Below are positions 1,456-50,970 of a stretch of DNA of 57,105 bases, in pieces. The notes under the pieces were generated by a model. It was not told where the DNA came from and did no database searches. It saw only the letters and a program-made list of their open reading frames with translations. The position numbers were made by a program, and so were the translations under genes. The stretch is from Cytophagales bacterium. Its GTDB lineage: Bacteria; Bacteroidota; Bacteroidia; Cytophagales; Thermoflexibacteraceae. The DNA lies in assembly GCA_013298985.1 (NCBI GenBank), contig JAAFJS010000008.1, forward strand, positions 1 through 57,105. The letters are read 5' to 3'. Position 1 is the stretch's first letter; the number at the start of each line of letters is the position of its first letter.

Positions 1456-3099
1456 ATGAAAACAAATCACAAGCAATTCAATTTTTCCTTTTCTTTTTTA
1501 GGGCTTGTAGCTGGGCTTATCGTTTTTGTAGTTTTTCTCCATATTTCTACCTTTGAGGCTTTCAGCACACTCTTACAGGCAAAGTTTCCCACTCAAAATG
1601 CTCAAAGTATAGCCATTGCTGCAGAAAGTATGCAAAAAGCGTTTGCTTTGCTTGCCTTGATGATTATTTGGTGGCTTACGGAGGCAGTACCTATTCCTGT
1701 TACTGCGCTTATGCCTGCCGTATTGATTCCATTTTTGGACATTCAGAAACTCACAGAAAGTGGATTGAAAAAAGTAAATAGTGTAGATATTTTGGCAAAT
1801 TATGCTGACCCTATCGTTTTTTTGTTTTTGGGTGGATTTATTCTTGCATCTGCTATGACGTATCATCAATTAGACAAACGCATTACTTTTAAGCTACTTT
1901 CTTATCCTATTTTTACCAAAAGTCCAGAAAGATTACTGCTGGGCATTATGTTGGCGACGGCTTTTATTTCTATGTGGATTAACAATACGGCTGTGGCGGC
2001 TATGCTGATGCCTATCGGGGTGGGCATGGCGAGCAGTATAGGTTCTTTGTCAGGAGAAAACCAAAATGCAAAAGCAGTACGGAATTTCGCTGCCTGTATT
2101 GCAATAAGCATTGCTTACAGCGCATCTATCGGCGGAATCGCGACGATTGTAGGCAGTACCCCCAATGGTATCGCGGTTTCCATGCTCAAACAGCAGAATC
2201 TTGCAGATATGACTTTTGTAAGCTGGCTTTCTTACGGTGTTCCTGCGATGTTTCTCATTTTGCTTTTTGCGTATTTTTATCTTTGCAAAACATTGCCTTT
2301 CAAAGAAATTTCTTTTCATACGATTGATGAAAAAGTAAAAATGGAATTACAAAAATTAGGAAAAATGACATCAGGAGAACAAAGAACTTTATATGTTTTT
2401 TTGATGACAGCCTTTTGTTGGTTATTTTTACCCTTTTTGAAAGGTGTTTTCCCTCCATTTTTAGATAAAATAGTAACGGCAATGGATACGTGGGTAGTGG
2501 CGATGCTCTCTGCCCTCGCGTTGTTTTTTATTTCCGTAGGAAAGACAGAAAAGTTGTCTGTGGGGACACAGACAACGGCAATGGGGACACAGACAACGGT
2601 AGAAAACAATCAAACGAGTGTAAAAAATAAACGTTTGATTTCTTGGGAACACGCCCAAAAGTCAGTGGATTGGGGTGCGTTGATACTTTTTGGGGGTGGA
2701 CTGGCATTATCTAAAATTTTGTTTGAAACCAAGAGTATCGTTTTTGTTGCCGAGCAAATCACGAGCTTATTGGGAGAACCATCTTTATTAGTTTATGTAC
2801 TCGTGATGACCTTTTTTGTCAATTTTTTGACTGAAGTAAGTTCCAATACTGCGGTAGCTTCTATGATGACTCCCATTGCAATTTCTATGGCGGCTTCTGC
2901 TGGTTTTTCACCGATTCCCTTGTGTATCGCGATTGCTTTTGGTGCTTCTATGGCTTTTATGCTACCTATCGCGACTCCTCCCAATGCCATCGCTTACGGT
3001 ACAGGACTTTTCAAACTCAAAGACATGGTGCGCGTGGGCTTCGTGCTGAATCTCGTTTCTACCTTAATCATTACGCTGGTAATTATGCTGAATCAGTGA
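1456..3099 (+). CDS. SLC13/DASS-family sodium-anion symporter
   Basis: This is an inner-membrane permease of 547 aa with the repeated architecture of divalent anion:Na+ symporters, which import dicarboxylates, sulfate or phosphate. The two pseudo-symmetric signature motifs are visible: WINNTAVAAMLMP with GSTPNGIA in the first half, and SSNTAVASMMTP with ATPPNAIAYGTG in the second. These form the Na+ and carboxylate sites in the family. The protein is hydrophobic throughout except for a cytoplasmic-looking insert at about residues 365-395. That insert holds two copies of a 7-residue GTQTT repeat and is not part of the family core. The substrate cannot be assigned. The gene is convergent with the MFS gene, 21 bases away. 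Confidence 0.93.
   Translation: MKTNHKQFNFSFSFLGLVAGLIVFVVFLHISTFEAFSTLLQAKFPTQNAQSIAIAAESMQKAFALLALMIIWWLTEAVPIPVTALMPAVLIPFLDIQKLTESGLKKVNSVDILANYADPIVFLFLGGFILASAMTYHQLDKRITFKLLSYPIFTKSPERLLLGIMLATAFISMWINNTAVAAMLMPIGVGMASSIGSLSGENQNAKAVRNFAACIAISIAYSASIGGIATIVGSTPNGIAVSMLKQQNLADMTFVSWLSYGVPAMFLILLFAYFYLCKTLPFKEISFHTIDEKVKMELQKLGKMTSGEQRTLYVFLMTAFCWLFLPFLKGVFPPFLDKIVTAMDTWVVAMLSALALFFISVGKTEKLSVGTQTTAMGTQTTVENNQTSVKNKRLISWEHAQKSVDWGALILFGGGLALSKILFETKSIVFVAEQITSLLGEPSLLVYVLVMTFFVNFLTEVSSNTAVASMMTPIAISMAASAGFSPIPLCIAIAFGASMAFMLPIATPPNAIAYGTGLFKLKDMVRVGFVLNLVSTLIITLVIMLNQ
2561..2600 (+). repeat. 21-bp tandem repeat inside SLC13 gene
   Basis: Two copies of TGGGGACACAGACAACGG lie 21 bases apart and encode two GTQTT-containing heptads. 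The copies are nearly identical and keep the frame. This suggests a recent slip or duplication in a surface loop. Confidence 0.8.
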
Positions 3100-3120
3100 T
3101 GAGGTAAAAAGAAATAAATT

Positions 3121-4380
3121 TTAGAATTTTTGAATCTTCATTTTGGCTTCTAAGCTCTTAAATCCGATAAAACCAATCACGTTAAATGCAATCATTAAAT
3201 ACCAAAGTGTAGTGAAATCAAAGTTTTTAGCTACGTTTGTACCTATTAATGGTGCAAATACCCACGCAATGGAAAAAACAGAGGCGTAAATACCAATAAA
3301 TTTCCCGCGTGTGCTGGGAGAAGAACGGCTTACTGTAAAAACATTTAGGTAAGGAAACATAAAAATCTCTCCAAAAGTAAAAAATACAATTGCAAAGACT
3401 ATTATTATCAAACTTTTAGAAATAGCAATCAAGCTAAATGCTACAACAAGCATCAGTGCGCCTATGCTTATCATACGAATTGGAGAAACACGTTGTCCTA
3501 TTTTATAGACTATCAGCATTTCAGCCAACGCAATAATCAATCCGTTTGTTCCTAATAAAACTCCGATTTTTTGCTCAGAATAAAAGCATATTTGTTTGAA
3601 ATAAAGAGGCATGACCGTAAATAATTGAAAAAAAGTAGTTACACAAATCATTGCCAGCCCGACAGCTATTAGGAAATCGTAATCTTGAGAAGGTAGTTTC
3701 TTTTCGGTTTTAGCTAATTGGTTTTCGGTTGAGGCTTTTTGCTGGGTGGGTTTGAACCAATACCTAAAAAATAAGCCTGCGGAGATACAAGTAATGGCAT
3801 CGACAAGGAACAAATAGCGAAAATCATAAGCGGCAAGCAGTCCACCCACAGAAGGTCCGACGGCGTAGCCCAAATTAGCAGCCAAACGGTTCAAGGCATA
3901 AGAACGCGTTAGGTTTTCTGGTGCGCTGTACTGCGCGACAGAGGCAGAGTTAGCAGGGCGCAATGCCTCTACAATGATGCTAATGACAAAAATAGCCACC
4001 GCAAACTCCCAAAATGTTTGCATAAACATTAGGACAAAAAAGCCAAATCCCCCGATAAGCAAGCTCCAAAACTGGACGTGGTATTGTCCGATTTTGTCAG
4101 CCAGCCAGCCACCCAAATATGTGCCTACAATAGACCCCATGCCAAAAATAGTGATAATTGTACCCGCCTCAGTGAGTGAAAAGTGTAATTTTTGTACCAG
4201 ATACACGCCCATAAAAGGAATGACCATCGAGCCACTACGATTAATGAGCATGATAGAAGCAAGCAGCCAGGAAGTGCGAGGTAAACCACCGTAAGCATTT
4301 TTATAAAGAGTCAGCGTAGTTTGAAAAAACATAAAAATTGAGTTTGTACTATTTTCTTGAAAACCTATTTGGCTTATCAT
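3121..4380 (-). CDS. MFS transporter (drug-exporter-like)
   Basis: This major facilitator protein has about 12 membrane helices. After the short N-terminus comes a family-typical first helix region (LLASIMLINRSGSMVIPFMGVYL) and the loop 2-3 motif GGWLADKIGQ, matching the MFS G-x-x-x-D-(K/R)-x-G-(R/K) signature. The open frame extends upstream to 4593, but that extension overlaps the RDD gene and a terminator. The ATG at 4380 (419 aa) or the one at 4332 (403 aa) is therefore preferred. A TACCTTTG promoter box lies 15 bases before 4380 and supports that start. The substrate is unknown; multidrug or small-molecule export is the usual role of this subgroup. Confidence 0.9.
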   Translation of the reverse strand: MISQIGFQENSTNSIFMFFQTTLTLYKNAYGGLPRTSWLLASIMLINRSGSMVIPFMGVYLVQKLHFSLTEAGTIITIFGMGSIVGTYLGGWLADKIGQYHVQFWSLLIGGFGFFVLMFMQTFWEFAVAIFVISIIVEALRPANSASVAQYSAPENLTRSYALNRLAANLGYAVGPSVGGLLAAYDFRYLFLVDAITCISAGLFFRYWFKPTQQKASTENQLAKTEKKLPSQDYDFLIAVGLAMICVTTFFQLFTVMPLYFKQICFYSEQKIGVLLGTNGLIIALAEMLIVYKIGQRVSPIRMISIGALMLVVAFSLIAISKSLIIIVFAIVFFTFGEIFMFPYLNVFTVSRSSPSTRGKFIGIYASVFSIAWVFAPLIGTNVAKNFDFTTLWYLMIAFNVIGFIGFKSLEAKMKIQKF

Positions 4381-7182: not shown

Positions 7183-9069
7183 ATGGCATATTTTCAAAAA
7201 ACTATGCCCATTTTGTACCAAACAGAAAATTGCTCCCTTTTTGATTTACAAGAATTACAGCTATATTTGAAAAAAAACTCATTTATGTCCATTGCTCGCA
7301 TAAACCAATATTACACCGAACTACACGAAATCACTCAATTTTCGGGAGAAGTCAAAGAAACCTCACTACGCAGACCTTTTGCAGAGTTGCTTAGTTATTT
7401 TGCAAAAGACAGAAACTTGCGGCTGGTAGATGAGGTAAAAATCCCCCATTCACCCAAGCAACCTGATGGCGTTTTAATAGATATTTTCCGCTTTCGATAT
7501 GGGTATTGGGAGGCAAAAGATTTAAAAGATGATTTTGAAAAAGAACTCAATAATAAAATCAAAATAGGCTATCCTACAGAAAACTTGTTGTTCGAGAACT
7601 CACAAAAAGCTATGCTTATTCAGGGTGAGGTGCGTGAAGTTTGCGACATGAAAGATGCAAAAGCATTACTCAAACTGCTACAAAAATTCGTTAGTTTTGA
7701 ACGAAAAGAAGCCGCAGATTTTAAAGAGGCTTTGGCTATTTTTAAGCGCGATGTGCCTGATATTGCAGGAGTGCTGAAAAAAATGCTTGACCAATACGTA
7801 AATGCAGAGCAAACAGCAATTGACAAAGAGGAATATTACAATGAAAAATTTGTCGTAGAACATCAAAAGTTTTTTGAGCTTTGTAAGGTTTCTATCAACC
7901 CCAAAATAGAAAAATCTGACATCAACGAAATGATTATTCAGCATATCCTCACCGAAGAAATCTTTAAAACCATTTTCAGCGATACCCAATACCATGAGGA
8001 AAATAACATTGCTATTGCACTTACGCAGATAGAAAAATCTTTTTTTACAGGAGATTTAAAGCGTAGCACTTTACAAGCCATTCAGCCTTATTATCAGGCA
8101 ATTAAGGCGCAGGCAGCCGCGCTTTTGGCGCATGAAGAAAAGCAAGATTTTCTCAAATCTATTTACGAAAATTTTTATCAGGCATATAATCCCAAAGGCG
8201 CAGACAGGCTTGGTATCGTCTATACGCCATCAGAGATAGTGAATTTTATGCTTGATAGCACTGAATACCTGCTCGAAAAGCATTTTGATAAAACCCTCTC
8301 GGACAAGGGTGTAGAGATTCTTGACCCCGCCACAGGTACAGGCACTTTTATTACACATCTTATCAAAAAGCTAAGTCCACACACCCTGCCTTACAAATAT
8401 GAACATGAGCTTCACGCCAACGAAGTTTCTATTTTGCCTTATTATATTGCCAACCTGAATATTGAGTATATTTACAGGCAGAAAATGGGAGCTTATAAGA
8501 ACTTTGACAATATATGTTGGGTAGATACGCTGGATAATTTGGGTGGAATGGACAAAGGATGGCAGGGAAACTCAAATATGTATCAGACTTCAGGCGATTT
8601 GTTTGGGGTAACAGAAGAAAACACACGCAGGATAAAGCAACAAAATGAAAAAAAAATCTCCGTTATTATTGGGAATCCGCCTTATAATGCCAATCAGCAA
8701 AACGAAAATGATAACAATAAAAATAGAGAATATGCACAAATAGATACACGTATCAAAGCAAGCTATATCAAAGAAAGTTCAGCGCAAAAAACCAAGCAGT
8801 ACGATATGTATAAGCGGTTTATCAGGTGGGCAAGTGATAGAATTGCAAAAAATGGTATGGTGTGCTTTGTGGTAAACCGTAGTTTTATAGATAAAAAGCA
8901 AGATGACGGCTTTCGCAAAACGATAGAAAAAGAATTTGATGAGTGCTACATTTCGGATTTTGGCGGTGATGTACGCGCAGAAGGGGCAGTAGCAGGCGAT
9001 AATGTTTTTGGTATTATGATAGGCGTAGCTGTAATAATTTTAGTAAAAAAAACAAAAATTGAGAAATAG
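7183..9069 (+). CDS. Type ISP-like restriction-modification enzyme, N-terminal part (split gene)
   Basis: This is the first 628 codons of a single-chain DNA methyltransferase-nuclease. The N-terminal nuclease has a PD-(D/E)XK core: P94-D95 in QPDGVLID and E110-A-K112 in YWEAKD. A helical coupling segment (about 150-340) leads to the adenine methyltransferase domain, with motif I D381-PATGTGTF (SAM binding) and motif IV N498-P-P-Y (catalysis). The frame ends at VAVIILVKKTKIEK, just where homologues continue into the strand (A)KIYYYR. That continuation starts at 9780 after a toxin-antitoxin insertion. Whether the two halves still work as separate chains is unknown. An alternative start at 7204 (MPILYQ) is possible. 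Confidence 0.88.
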   Translation: MAYFQKTMPILYQTENCSLFDLQELQLYLKKNSFMSIARINQYYTELHEITQFSGEVKETSLRRPFAELLSYFAKDRNLRLVDEVKIPHSPKQPDGVLIDIFRFRYGYWEAKDLKDDFEKELNNKIKIGYPTENLLFENSQKAMLIQGEVREVCDMKDAKALLKLLQKFVSFERKEAADFKEALAIFKRDVPDIAGVLKKMLDQYVNAEQTAIDKEEYYNEKFVVEHQKFFELCKVSINPKIEKSDINEMIIQHILTEEIFKTIFSDTQYHEENNIAIALTQIEKSFFTGDLKRSTLQAIQPYYQAIKAQAAALLAHEEKQDFLKSIYENFYQAYNPKGADRLGIVYTPSEIVNFMLDSTEYLLEKHFDKTLSDKGVEILDPATGTGTFITHLIKKLSPHTLPYKYEHELHANEVSILPYYIANLNIEYIYRQKMGAYKNFDNICWVDTLDNLGGMDKGWQGNSNMYQTSGDLFGVTEENTRRIKQQNEKKISVIIGNPPYNANQQNENDNNKNREYAQIDTRIKASYIKESSAQKTKQYDMYKRFIRWASDRIAKNGMVCFVVNRSFIDKKQDDGFRKTIEKEFDECYISDFGGDVRAEGAVAGDNVFGIMIGVAVIILVKKTKIEK

Positions 9070-9119
9070 CCACCTTGTTTTCTATATTTTTTCGTAAATT
9101 GTACTCAAAATAATACAAA
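9052..9119 (+). promoter_or_regulatory. TA leader, copy A (promoter and dyad)
   Basis: This 68-bp stretch just before the first PIN module is about 93% identical to 13647-13713 before the second, with four substitutions and one indel. It contains TTG, 17 bases, then TAAATTG, a fair Bacteroidota -33/-7 pair. A dyad TTGTA-N10-TACAA lies at 9099-9118, a plausible antitoxin operator. Its left end overlaps the direct repeat that flanks the cassette. Confidence 0.75.
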
Positions 9120-9120
9120 C

Positions 9121-9324
9121 ATGATTTTACAGCGTCAAGAAAATAATATTATCATCAGTATCAATGCCAATATCGATATGAAAATATTGGAAGGCTTTAT
9201 TCAGTATCTACGCATTGTAGAGCTATTAGCCCAAAGTAAAGGAACACAAGAGCAGGCTTTTGAACTTTCAGAAGAAATCAAAGAAAATTGGTGGAAAGCC
9301 AATAAACAGTCGTTCGTAGCATGA
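9121..9324 (+). CDS. Putative antitoxin of PIN module A
   Basis: This 67-aa protein begins with a short beta stretch (NNIIISINANIDM) followed by helices rich in Glu and ending in WWKANKQSF. Size, position and a 4-base ATGA overlap with the downstream PIN gene are those of a type II antitoxin. The long C-terminal acidic helix would wrap the toxin. I do not recognise the DNA-binding family. The leader upstream carries a dyad that it may bind. Confidence 0.75.
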   Translation: MILQRQENNIIISINANIDMKILEGFIQYLRIVELLAQSKGTQEQAFELSEEIKENWWKANKQSFVA

Positions 9325-9761
9325 AAATTATTGTAGATACCAATAGACTGTTTAGTGCCTTGCTTACCCCTTTTGGGAAAATTGCTGATTTATTGATAAA
9401 CCCCAAATATAATTTTGAAAAATATTGTTGTCATTATACAATGGTCGAACTTTTCAAATACCACAACAAAATCATAGAAATTAGTAAACAGCCACCCGAA
9501 GACATAGGGCAAATTATGTACGGATTTCTCAATAAAATTACCTTTATCAATGAAAGTCAGCTAACCACTACACATAAAACTCAAGCATACGAACTCACCA
9601 AAGACGTAGATGAAAAGGATATGCCTTTTGTGGCTCTTACCTTGGCTATTCCCGAAAGTTTGCTCTGGACAGGAGATAAAAAACTCATCAGCGGACTCAA
9701 AAACAAGGACTTCCAACGCTGTATTTCTACAGAGGATTTATTCACAACACTCAATATGTAA
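9321..9761 (+). CDS. PIN-domain ribonuclease toxin (module A)
   Basis: This 146-aa PIN protein (VapC-like) is a Mg2+-dependent RNase. Acidic residues of the active site are visible: D6 in IIVDTNRLF, E43 in TMVELFKY, D97/D100 in DVDEKDMPFVALTL, and D119 in LWTGDKKL. These match the four-acid PIN pattern. It starts inside the last codons of the antitoxin, so the two are translationally coupled. The pair sits inside an R-M gene. The RNA target is unknown. Confidence 0.88.
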   Translation: MKIIVDTNRLFSALLTPFGKIADLLINPKYNFEKYCCHYTMVELFKYHNKIIEISKQPPEDIGQIMYGFLNKITFINESQLTTTHKTQAYELTKDVDEKDMPFVALTLAIPESLLWTGDKKLISGLKNKDFQRCISTEDLFTTLNM

Positions 9762-9776
9762 TAAGGCAGACTTTCC

Positions 9777-11252
9777 ATGAAAAAAGCAAAAATTTACTAC
9801 TACCGATTCCCCACTATGCCCAGCAAGGCAGAAAAACTACAACTTATCAAAGATACAAAGTTTGACGATATACCTTTTGAAAGAATTACGCCCGACGAAA
9901 AAGGTAATTGGATAAACCAAACAGATAACGACTTTCAATCTCTGATTCCTCTCTGCGCCAAAGACGTAAAACTTGGTAGAAGCAAAGAAGCTATTTTTGA
10001 ATTGTTTTCCAATGGTGTGTCTACCAACAGAGATGAATGGGTGTATGATTTTTCTAAGGAGAATTTGGAGCAAAAAATAAGATTTTTCCTAAAAGAATAT
10101 AATAGCGAAGTGGATAGATGGATAGAATGGAAAAAGAAAAATAATTACCAAGATACAGAAGGCGAAAGCAGCCCTACTGTGGATAGGTTTATTCACGAAC
10201 GAAATCTAATAAAATGGAGTAAAATGATAAAACGTGATAAACTAAGAAAACATAAAAAAGAAGAATTTGACAGTAATAATATTCGGAAGGTTTTATACAG
10301 ACCTTTTACTACTAAATATTTGTATTTTGGCTATGTTCCCATTGATTTAAAAGGAGAGTTTATCTCTATTCTACAACAAGCTAATCAAGTAATTAGCATA
10401 TCAGGGACAAGTCAAAAACCTTTCCATACTTTGATAAGTGATTGTGTATTAGATTTACATTTCACAGGAGATACAGTAGCTTTTCCTTTCTACCGTTACG
10501 ACAATGGCGAAAGAACAGAAAATATCACAGATTGGGGATTATCAGTTTTCAGTAATCAGTATTCAGTGAACAGTAATCAATTAACAGTAAACAGTGAACA
10601 AAAAAATGTAACTGATAATTGTTCACTGATAACTGAAAAACTGCTCACTAAAAAAGATATTTTTCACTATATCTACGCAGTTCTCCATTCACCTGACTAT
10701 CGCAAAAAATACGAATTAGATTTGAAACGTGAATTTCCTCGTATTCCTTTGTATGCAGATTTTTGGAAATATGCAGAGGCAGGAGAAAAACTGATGGAAT
10801 TGCACCTTAATTACGAATTAGAAATTACAAATTACGAACCTTTTTTAGAACGAAAAGATATTGAATTAGCTAAGTTTTTAGAAAAATTACGAGGTAAAAA
10901 GAAAGAAAAAGACTTGTCTGATAAAGAAAAAACAGCACCTTTTGAGCAAGAAGCCAAAGAACCCACTATAAAAATCAATCCTATTCTCAAAATCAAGGAA
11001 GGCAACATAGAAATAGACGAATTGACTATGCTTTGCGGAGTTCCTGCGGAGGCTTTGGCATATAAACTTGGAAATCGGAGTGCTATCGAGTGGGTGCTTG
11101 ACCAATACAAGCCCTATAAATCTGATGACAAAACCATTCAAGAACAATTCAACAACTATGATTTTGCAGATTATAAAGAAGAAGTAATTGAATTGTTGCA
11201 AAAAGTCTGCTATGTGAGTGTGGAAACGATGAAAATAATAGAAAGTTTGTAG
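9777..11252 (+). CDS. Type ISP-like restriction-modification enzyme, C-terminal part (split gene)
   Basis: This 491-aa frame carries the end of the methyltransferase fold and the target recognition part of a type ISP-like enzyme. It begins KIYYYRFPTMPSKAEKLQLI, which follows the VKK strand in intact relatives. Later family hallmarks include SLIPLCAKDVKLG, FELFSNGVSTNRDEWVYDF, the YRPFTTKYLYFG motif and PFYRYD. The C-terminus (ILKIKEGNIEIDEL to EWVLDQY) matches the usual end of these proteins. Two stretches (SVFSNQYSVNSNQLTVNSEQ and LNYELEITNYE) are read through repeats and are probably not part of the fold. The start is an ATG created at the cassette junction, so separate translation is possible but unproved. 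Confidence 0.85.
   Translation: MKKAKIYYYRFPTMPSKAEKLQLIKDTKFDDIPFERITPDEKGNWINQTDNDFQSLIPLCAKDVKLGRSKEAIFELFSNGVSTNRDEWVYDFSKENLEQKIRFFLKEYNSEVDRWIEWKKKNNYQDTEGESSPTVDRFIHERNLIKWSKMIKRDKLRKHKKEEFDSNNIRKVLYRPFTTKYLYFGYVPIDLKGEFISILQQANQVISISGTSQKPFHTLISDCVLDLHFTGDTVAFPFYRYDNGERTENITDWGLSVFSNQYSVNSNQLTVNSEQKNVTDNCSLITEKLLTKKDIFHYIYAVLHSPDYRKKYELDLKREFPRIPLYADFWKYAEAGEKLMELHLNYELEITNYEPFLERKDIELAKFLEKLRGKKKEKDLSDKEKTAPFEQEAKEPTIKINPILKIKEGNIEIDELTMLCGVPAEALAYKLGNRSAIEWVLDQYKPYKSDDKTIQEQFNNYDFADYKEEVIELLQKVCYVSVETMKIIESL
10541..10643. repeat. Palindromic repeat inside the R-M gene
   Basis: Short CAGTAATCAGT / CAGTGAACAG units on the left are answered by TGTTCACTGATAACTG units on the right. Together they form a degenerate palindrome of about 100 bp that stays open in the reading frame and encodes an S/N/Q-rich loop. 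It sits between well-conserved blocks of the enzyme. Confidence 0.75.
10807..10838. repeat. AT-rich interspersed repeat inside the R-M gene
   Basis: AATTACGAATTAGAAATTAC-type units translate as NYELEITNYE. They resemble the intergenic AATTATGAATTA repeats elsewhere in the window. The insertion keeps the frame. Confidence 0.6.
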
Positions 11253-49882: not shown

Positions 49883-50518
49883 TCAATCATAAAATGGAAT
49901 AGCTGCCAAGTCGAATAGATAAATGGTTTTGTCGCTTTCTACATCTCTTGCCTTTGATAATTCGTGGACTTTTAATATTGATTTGGGCAACGAAAAAGGT
50001 TTTTTAAATAGATTTAGAGGGTGGTAGTCGCCATCATAAATATCGTGATTGCGGATAGTTTTGGGGTAAGAAGTGGTCAAAAGCCACTTTGAGCCACTGG
50101 ATTTGAAGTTATTAAGGGCTTTTTTTATATTTTGATAGGATAAATGCTGGAAACAATCTTTACAAAAAATCAAATCTACTTGGGGCAGCGCGTCTTTGGT
50201 GATGTCGATGAGCCTAAACTGCACATTGGCTGAGGAATATTGTGCTTGATTGTTCTCGATAATCGCAGGAACTATATCGCCGCCAATGTACTGACACTTT
50301 TTTTCTACGTGCCGCATCCAATTATAATCTCCACAAGGCACATCTAACATCGTTTTGATGGCATATTCTTCAATAAATGTCGCTAAAAATGTGCGAACAC
50401 TTTGGGTTGCCTGTAGCGTAGAGCCGCCACCAGAGAGGGATTCTTCGGAAAGCCACAAATTTTTATGAGAAATGACAGAAAACACAAAGGCACATCTAAC
50501 ATCGTTTTGATGGCACAT
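49883..50518 (-). CDS. SAM-dependent methyltransferase, 3' part (disrupted gene)
   Basis: The conserved part reads MLDVPCGDYNWMRHVEKKC (SAM-binding glycine/acidic loop), YIGGDIVPAIIENN, FRLIDITKDALPQVDLIFCKDCFQHLSYQNIKKAL and LLTTSYP. It is a class I methyltransferase of the type beside glycosyltransferases and secondary-metabolite genes. The N-terminus MCHQNDVRCAF is an artefact of a tandem duplication that shifts the frame. The true N-terminus lies in the next frame at 50383-50745. Removing one 152-bp period gives an intact 236-aa protein. Confidence 0.8.
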   Translation of the reverse strand: MCHQNDVRCAFVFSVISHKNLWLSEESLSGGGSTLQATQSVRTFLATFIEEYAIKTMLDVPCGDYNWMRHVEKKCQYIGGDIVPAIIENNQAQYSSANVQFRLIDITKDALPQVDLIFCKDCFQHLSYQNIKKALNNFKSSGSKWLLTTSYPKTIRNHDIYDGDYHPLNLFKKPFSLPKSILKVHELSKARDVESDKTIYLFDLAAIPFYD

Positions 50519-50637
50519 TCTTCAATAAATGTCGCTAAAAATGTGCGAATACTTTGGGTTGCCTGTAGCGTAGAGCCGCCACCAGAGAGGGATTCTTCGG
50601 AAAGCCACAAATTTTTATGAGAAATGACAGAAAACAC
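50335..50637. repeat. 151-bp tandem duplication in the methyltransferase gene
   Basis: Bases 50335-50485 and 50487-50637 are identical at 149 of 151 positions (differences at 50364/50516 and 50398/50550), with one base between. The 152-base period is not a multiple of three, so the copy puts the gene out of frame. The near identity suggests a recent event. Confidence 0.93.
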
Positions 50638-50745
50638 CGCGTCCGCATTTTTCAATGCAAATTTTTCTTTGTCGTAATAATAACTTCGTAGAAGTCGCTC
50701 CACGGGTTCTGGTAAAAACTTTTTGATAATATTTTTTAAGCTCAT
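50383..50745 (-). pseudogene. 5' part of the disrupted methyltransferase
   Basis: The start at 50745 (MSLKNIIKKFLPEPVERLLRSYYY) is followed by FSVISHKNLWLSEESLSGGGSTLQATQ and AIKTMLDVP, which belong in front of the CGDYNW loop. After DVP the frame enters the second copy of the duplication and reads LCFLSFLIK, then stops. It is the natural beginning of the 49883 gene. Confidence 0.8.
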
Positions 50746-50863: not shown

Positions 50864-50885
50864 AGCATAGTCGGATTACAAATCC
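50864..50885. repeat. 22-bp dispersed repeat, copy 1
   Basis: The sequence AGCATAGTCGGATTACAAAT plus two further bases (CC) occurs here and again at 53225-53246, at the 3' end of the sensor kinase gene. The two copies flank that gene in direct orientation. Confidence 0.8.
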
Positions 50886-50970
50886 TCAAAAAATTAAGGG
50901 CGAGATTACAAATCCCGCCCAACGGAATCCTCAAAAAATTAAGGACGAGATTACAAATCCCGCCCAACGG
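50881..50970. repeat. 45-bp tandem repeat
   Basis: Two 45-base units (50881-50925 and 50926-50970) differ at one base. Each contains AAATTAAGGRCGAGATTAC and CCCGCCCAACGG. Together with the 22-bp repeat they form the only structure in the 335-base gap 50746-51080. An open frame of 101 codons crosses it, but it shows no protein features. Confidence 0.85.

Follow-up and report, generated by a model that had tools for sequence, protein, structure and literature searches.

What becomes of a methyltransferase gene once a tandem duplication has broken its reading frame is the question raised by a locus of a Cytophagales bacterium (assembly GCA_013298985.1, contig JAAFJS010000008.1), found in the stretch of 57,105 nucleotides analysed here as a whole and referred to as the window. 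The gene lies on the minus strand between positions 49883 and 50745 and is interrupted by the duplication. A preliminary description of this DNA had considered the two-copy state either as the off position of a reversible switch or as a very recent inactivation. The explanation that we favour, tentatively, is that the full-length enzyme was lost through a one-off duplication, which left behind a trimmed methyltransferase provided with a new start.

Structure of the tandem duplication

The duplication is present in the sequence as it had been described. Tandem Repeats Finder returned for 50335-50637 a period of 152 bases, 2.0 copies and a score of 592. In the direction of the gene, the upstream 151-bp unit (copy B, 50487-50637, minus strand) shares its frame with the native N-terminus and the downstream unit (copy A, 50335-50485, minus strand) with the remaining catalytic core, the period of 152 being completed by an extra A placed between them at 50486. 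The copies are identical at 149 of 151 bases, which in tandem far exceeds chance, and the near-perfect repeat with two differing positions reported earlier was reproduced: T in copy A against C in copy B (50364/50516), and C against T (50398/50550). These differences separate exact runs of 29, 33 and 87 bases. At the junction, besides the added A, the end of the unit has no more than three bases (CAC) in common with the sequence immediately preceding copy A. A query of 504 bases taken from the locus matched its own genome once, and no second copy of the locus was found there.

The span that begins with the ATG at 50745 and closes with the last base of the stop codon at 49883 measures 863 bases, and removal of one period leaves 711, or 237 codons, which agrees with a single-copy product of 236 amino acids plus a stop; the intact 236-aa enzyme claimed for the one-copy state is thereby upheld as to its length, by arithmetic on the two-copy sequence. 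With both copies in place, the native frame ends after 120 amino acids, at a stop codon whose last base is 50383, so the extra copy breaks the frame, as had been stated and as would be expected of a phase-variable gene. The resulting ORF1 (50383-50745, minus strand) comprises the native start, 36 N-terminal residues and the stretch encoded by copy B, followed by out-of-frame sequence. No Pfam family at E 0.01 and no NCBIfam family at E 0.1 was matched by ORF1, which lacks a Pfam Methyltransf domain.

A methyltransferase core in a second open frame

The preliminary description had omitted a second frame that starts inside the duplication. This 211-aa ORF2 (49883-50518, minus strand) begins in copy B, runs through copy A to the native stop and overlaps ORF1 by 136 bases; the 36 native N-terminal residues are absent from it and eleven others stand in their stead. 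The idea that the enzyme is off in the two-copy state was thus sustained as regards the broken full-length frame, but not as regards ORF2, which is open and carries a complete core.

ORF2 scored above the Pfam cut-offs of Methyltransf_25 (PF13649, 34 bits versus 27), PF08242 (32.1 versus 30) and PF08241 (26.6 versus 21.2), in line with the original naming of the gene as a methyltransferase; it remained below those of PF13847 (23.6 of 27) and CheR (17.9 of 27), and matched PHROG 3382 'methyltransferase' at 7e-51. Compared with the class I SAM-dependent methyltransferases of Pfam Methyltransf_25/12/11 and PHROG 3382, its core is alike, whereas the native N-terminus is replaced. The stretch DVPCGDYNW is common to ORF2 and its relatives, and homology to them starts at about residue 12, where the core of distant homologues starts too. 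ORF2 is predicted from such similarities to be a candidate class I SAM-dependent methyltransferase. A methyltransferase fold is likewise predicted: the AlphaFold2 model had a pLDDT of 88.9 and a pTM of 0.87, with poorly modelled first ten residues (mean pLDDT 56), and among the 50 matches listed in a comparison with solved structures, all of which we take to be methyltransferases by title or known function, the best E was 1.9e-9 and TM did not exceed 0.63 of the query, a moderate superposition. The closest relatives resemble one another in the N-terminal segment that ORF2 has lost, and in the model of one of them (L031) it forms two helices, at residues 6-17 and 23-33; this similarity counts against the reading of ORF2 as a working trimmed enzyme.

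The solved chains found by sequence search were phosphoethanolamine N-methyltransferases, at E 3e-8 or weaker, and this substrate was rejected as a specific assignment, the similarity being weak and not specific. The 10 neighbour genes of the relatives L031, L033, L036 and L038, mostly mixed or unassigned, gave no clue to the substrate either; among these four, genes for capsule synthesis, CDP-glycerol glycerophosphotransferase and epimerases of the sugar-nucleotide type were seen beside L038 only.

Relatives and probable origin of the gene

The comparison covered 83 relatives, made up of 80 loci kept of 308 found, plus L003, L006 and L009. The closest were nine Bacteroidota loci (L030-L038) with 60-65% identity, mostly metagenome-assembled genomes, from Dysgonamonadaceae, Prevotellaceae, Lentimicrobiaceae and others; they share the same core with the locus and, where their N-terminus is present, a similar preceding segment. 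By comparison, the nearest paralogue in the own genome showed 33-40% identity and the best relatives in the genus and family 41-42%. None of the 83 relatives carried a tandem unit of at least 40 bases at 85% identity or more within 300 bases of the match, and the 23 that were read out are open single frames, two of which (L037, L041) reach the contig end. In a tree of ORF2 and 33 chosen relatives, ORF2 was placed with nine Bacteroidota rows, with support of 89/87 and the fork drawn open, and apart from the paralogue of its own genome. When the DNA of the gene was sought in 58 other related genomes, two matches only were obtained, of 62 and 29 bases. It is likely, as far as sequence comparison goes, that the gene was acquired by transfer from another Bacteroidota lineage.

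The own-genome paralogue C347 (L006, G000, 1483-2280) is a distinct, open gene of 265 aa. A match in the genome G001 (L003, C50, 1507-2229) was considered as an orthologue of the window gene within the genus and rejected, since in the tree it groups with C347 at 100/99; near both L006 (G000:C347) and L003 (G001:C50), ORFs were observed that resemble, by eye, acetolactate synthase subunits, both large and small. No match to the window gene was found in G002, which is 62% complete. Comparison with an empty site by means of the flanks was also attempted in G002 and abandoned, as the kinase gene has a 69% match there in different surroundings and the 799-aa neighbour a 48% match on another contig.

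Other features of the window

Just upstream of the methyltransferase gene, a 45-bp tandem repeat (50881-50970) is built of a dispersed palindromic element with the core GATTACAAATCCCGCCCAACGG; the element is terminator-like on the minus strand. The element occurs at 10 genome sites at up to 2 mismatches, including the two at 50881-50970, and its reversed control at none. Terminator-like sites were in excess between 49700 and 51100 (5 versus 1.1 by chance, sd 1.1), and promoter-like matches were near chance (6 versus 4.9, sd 2.4).

Elsewhere, at 7183-11252, the window carries a Type ISP restriction-modification enzyme split in two genes. The N-terminal one (7183-9069) has ISP_coupler, Eco57I and N6_Mtase matches and the C-terminal specificity gene (9777-11252) matches Type_ISP_C at 2e-83; the sequence between them encodes a PIN_2 protein (9321-9761, 1.7e-25), preceded by a small ORF without assignment (9121-9324), and the insert is flanked by a direct repeat with 14 of 15 bases alike (9046-9060 and 9780-9794). 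In a related genome (L135, G005:C251, about 2208-3310), an enzyme of this kind is interrupted at the site that corresponds to window 9066-9780, between ...GVAVIILIKK and KAKIYY; the gene inserted there is a different one, lies on the opposite strand, encodes 276 aa and has a Bro-N match just below the cut-off (25.0 of 25.6 bits). Several other relatives have single frames of about 1050-1140 aa, and shorter frames were seen at G003:C43, G004:C15 and G000:C164. On this comparison, two different cargoes appear to occupy one site between the methylase and specificity parts.

A putative start codon generated in the upstream copy

The ATG of ORF2 (50516-50518, minus strand) is owed to the derived base of copy B at 50516, the equivalent codon in copy A being ATA. 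The same change converts TAT to TGT, and hence Tyr to Cys, in the frame of ORF1. Cys was found at this site in none of the 83 relatives, and the 14 relatives with at least 55% identity have Tyr (10) or Phe (4), so copy B is taken as the changed copy at 50516; at the site of the second difference, the 83 relatives have I (42), V (22) or L (19). A TGA in the frame of ORF2 (50522-50524, minus strand), two codons upstream of the ATG, sets the upstream limit of ORF2, and out of the 453 possible single substitutions in copy B, just this one gives an in-frame ATG between this TGA and the core. Without the change at 50516, a GTG (50483-50485, minus strand), with poor upstream context, stays as a possible start at 50485.

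Start contexts were scored with a matrix for which the window, together with 20 stretches from its genome, supplied 169 presumed genes; the ORF2 ATG obtained 1.76, the native start 1.45 and the GTG -1.75. The ORF2 ATG exceeded 94% of 3482 internal ATGs, and among the presumed genes, scored here with the matrix derived from themselves, it ranked at the 23rd percentile, 77% of them scoring higher. The argument from the ATG was arrived at post hoc, and a single base carries it. Moreover, the start of ORF2 sits inside ORF1, so ribosomes translating ORF1 would cross it, which counts against translation of ORF2.

Remnant gene or trimmed enzyme

The course of events that we would tentatively propose begins with a single tandem duplication of 151 bp and one base in a probably acquired methyltransferase gene, by which the full-length 236-aa enzyme would have been lost, the duplication staying unreversed in the sequenced lineage. 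What was left would be the dead-end ORF1 and, overlapping it, ORF2 with the SAM-binding and catalytic core. After the duplication, the base change in the upstream copy would have given ORF2 an in-frame ATG where ATA had stood, and a re-headed, N-terminally trimmed and perhaps active methyltransferase would most likely be made from the new ATG.

A close rival, although somewhat unlikely in itself, is that the duplication inactivated a dispensable acquired gene, now an early pseudogene, ORF2 being an untranslated remnant and its ATG a coincidence. The position of the ORF2 start within ORF1, the presence of the distinct open paralogue in the same genome and the very short DNA matches in related genomes, as for a dispensable gene, are in keeping with such a loss. 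The coding sequence of ORF2 speaks on both sides. Conservation reaches 90% or more among the 83 relatives in 34 columns, and ORF2 keeps 32 of them, the exceptions being H166 (R in 81 of 83) and S180 (P in 75 of 83). Two or more such changes were counted, leaving each out in turn, in 28 of the 83 relatives; among the closest 14 they occur in L031 only, and being rare there, the changes at H166 and S180 give a mild hint of decay. Set against loss are the conserved columns retained, the well-predicted fold and the rarity of a substitution that makes a start. Instead of the several independent disabling lesions typical of a pseudogene, one frame break was found, and the 211 codons of ORF2 contain no stop and no second break. 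The condition of ORF2 would suit a functional gene as well as one in early decay.

Assembly and tandem units elsewhere in the genome

The possibility that two alleles of a strain mixture, or overlapping contig ends, were set in tandem by the assembly is rather improbable. In favour of an artefact, the assembly is a draft of 383 contigs, 151 bases is a common short-read length and 127 a common k-mer length of assemblers, and an exact tandem unit of 127 bp does occur on another sampled contig. The latter emerged from an ungapped scan in which full units of 80-1999 bases had to be at least 95% identical. The scan covered the window together with the 57 stretches of the own genome that were usable (1,001,930 bases; three all-N stretches excluded) and returned five units, with periods of 152, 127, 102 (2 x 51), 84 and 81. 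The 152 unit is the longest of this small, ordinary class; such duplications are uncommon in the genome and not unique. The 127-bp unit (L153, G000:C378, 7076-7331) lies at the 5' end of a gene with, by eye, a paralogue about 1 kb away, and may be a genuine duplication or else an overlap left by the assembly. At L013 (G000:C60, 12971-13193), 4.4 copies of a 51-bp unit were observed, with 98% matches.

Against an artefact, the window and the 57 usable stretches contain no N, and hence no visible scaffold gap, and the edge of a repeat would not be expected at a locus that matches its genome once. In addition, the two differences and the extra A misfit an untrimmed exact overlap, and the five sampled units have five different periods. 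An extract of a study of another genome (PMC12817950) states that misassembly is expected to collapse tandem copies rather than to expand them.

Age of the duplication and the question of switching

Since the copies differ at two positions, the two-copy state is probably old enough to have acquired mutations. If each site mutates at a rate of 1e-10 to 1e-9 per generation, two differences in 151 bases mean some millions of generations, an estimate with wide error as it is drawn from two events. Copies produced by a fresh flip to the off state would be identical, and it is therefore improbable that the array is brand new or cycles rapidly; accordingly, the very recent inactivation proposed earlier found no support.

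The reversible on/off state proposed as its alternative would require the array to collapse by slippage or recombination and to form again, as in pneumococcal capsule genes. In its favour, the period is one that breaks the frame, by arithmetic a gene that lost one unit would regain its length, and the exact run of 87 bases could serve for misalignment. Collapse to one copy is plausible in principle, by analogy with 101-bp tandem repeats on an E. coli plasmid, deleted at high frequency according to an extract of PMC8378479. Spontaneous and reversible duplications in the capsule operon of pneumococcal serotypes are reported in the available portion of PMC4243769, and intragenic tandem duplications at the type 3 locus, cap8E and tts are attributed to Waite et al. 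2001 and 2003 in portions of PMC4243769 and PMC4022640; such cases show that intragenic duplications can be reversible. In those accounts, as here, a tandem duplication within an ORF removes the full-length product; reversion is described there, whereas here the copies have diverged and a core ORF with a new start codon remains. In a non-exhaustive search of the literature, precedents were found and no match to the same arrangement.

The copies, moreover, are not identical as they would be after a recent flip or re-formation, and the same array would have to arise by a fresh event at a junction of three matching bases plus an added A, which offers no template for re-forming it. Collapse may be rare at this locus or selected against; alternatively, the differences may date from the event itself or stem from mixed strains. 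None of these options fits a fast switch. On balance, a reversible switch is the least probable of the explanations considered, and a distinctly unlikely one.

Significance of a proposed re-headed methyltransferase

The usual interpretation of a gene-breaking tandem duplication is a knockout or a phase switch. In the present locus, the copies have diverged and one of their mere two differences has created a start codon, which points to a third outcome, in which the catalytic part of the gene would be rescued with a new N-terminus. At its fullest, the re-headed reading would make the duplication a remodelling and not a lesion, the N-terminal segment being dropped and the core translated from a repeat-born start, so that copy number would set the N-terminus of the enzyme and not its existence; we regard this stronger form as doubtful. 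If it held, copy number would perhaps also set the location or the partner of the enzyme. Should the re-headed reading prove wrong, the locus would be an ordinary broken accessory gene; if true, it would offer a small example of how the start of a gene is remade.
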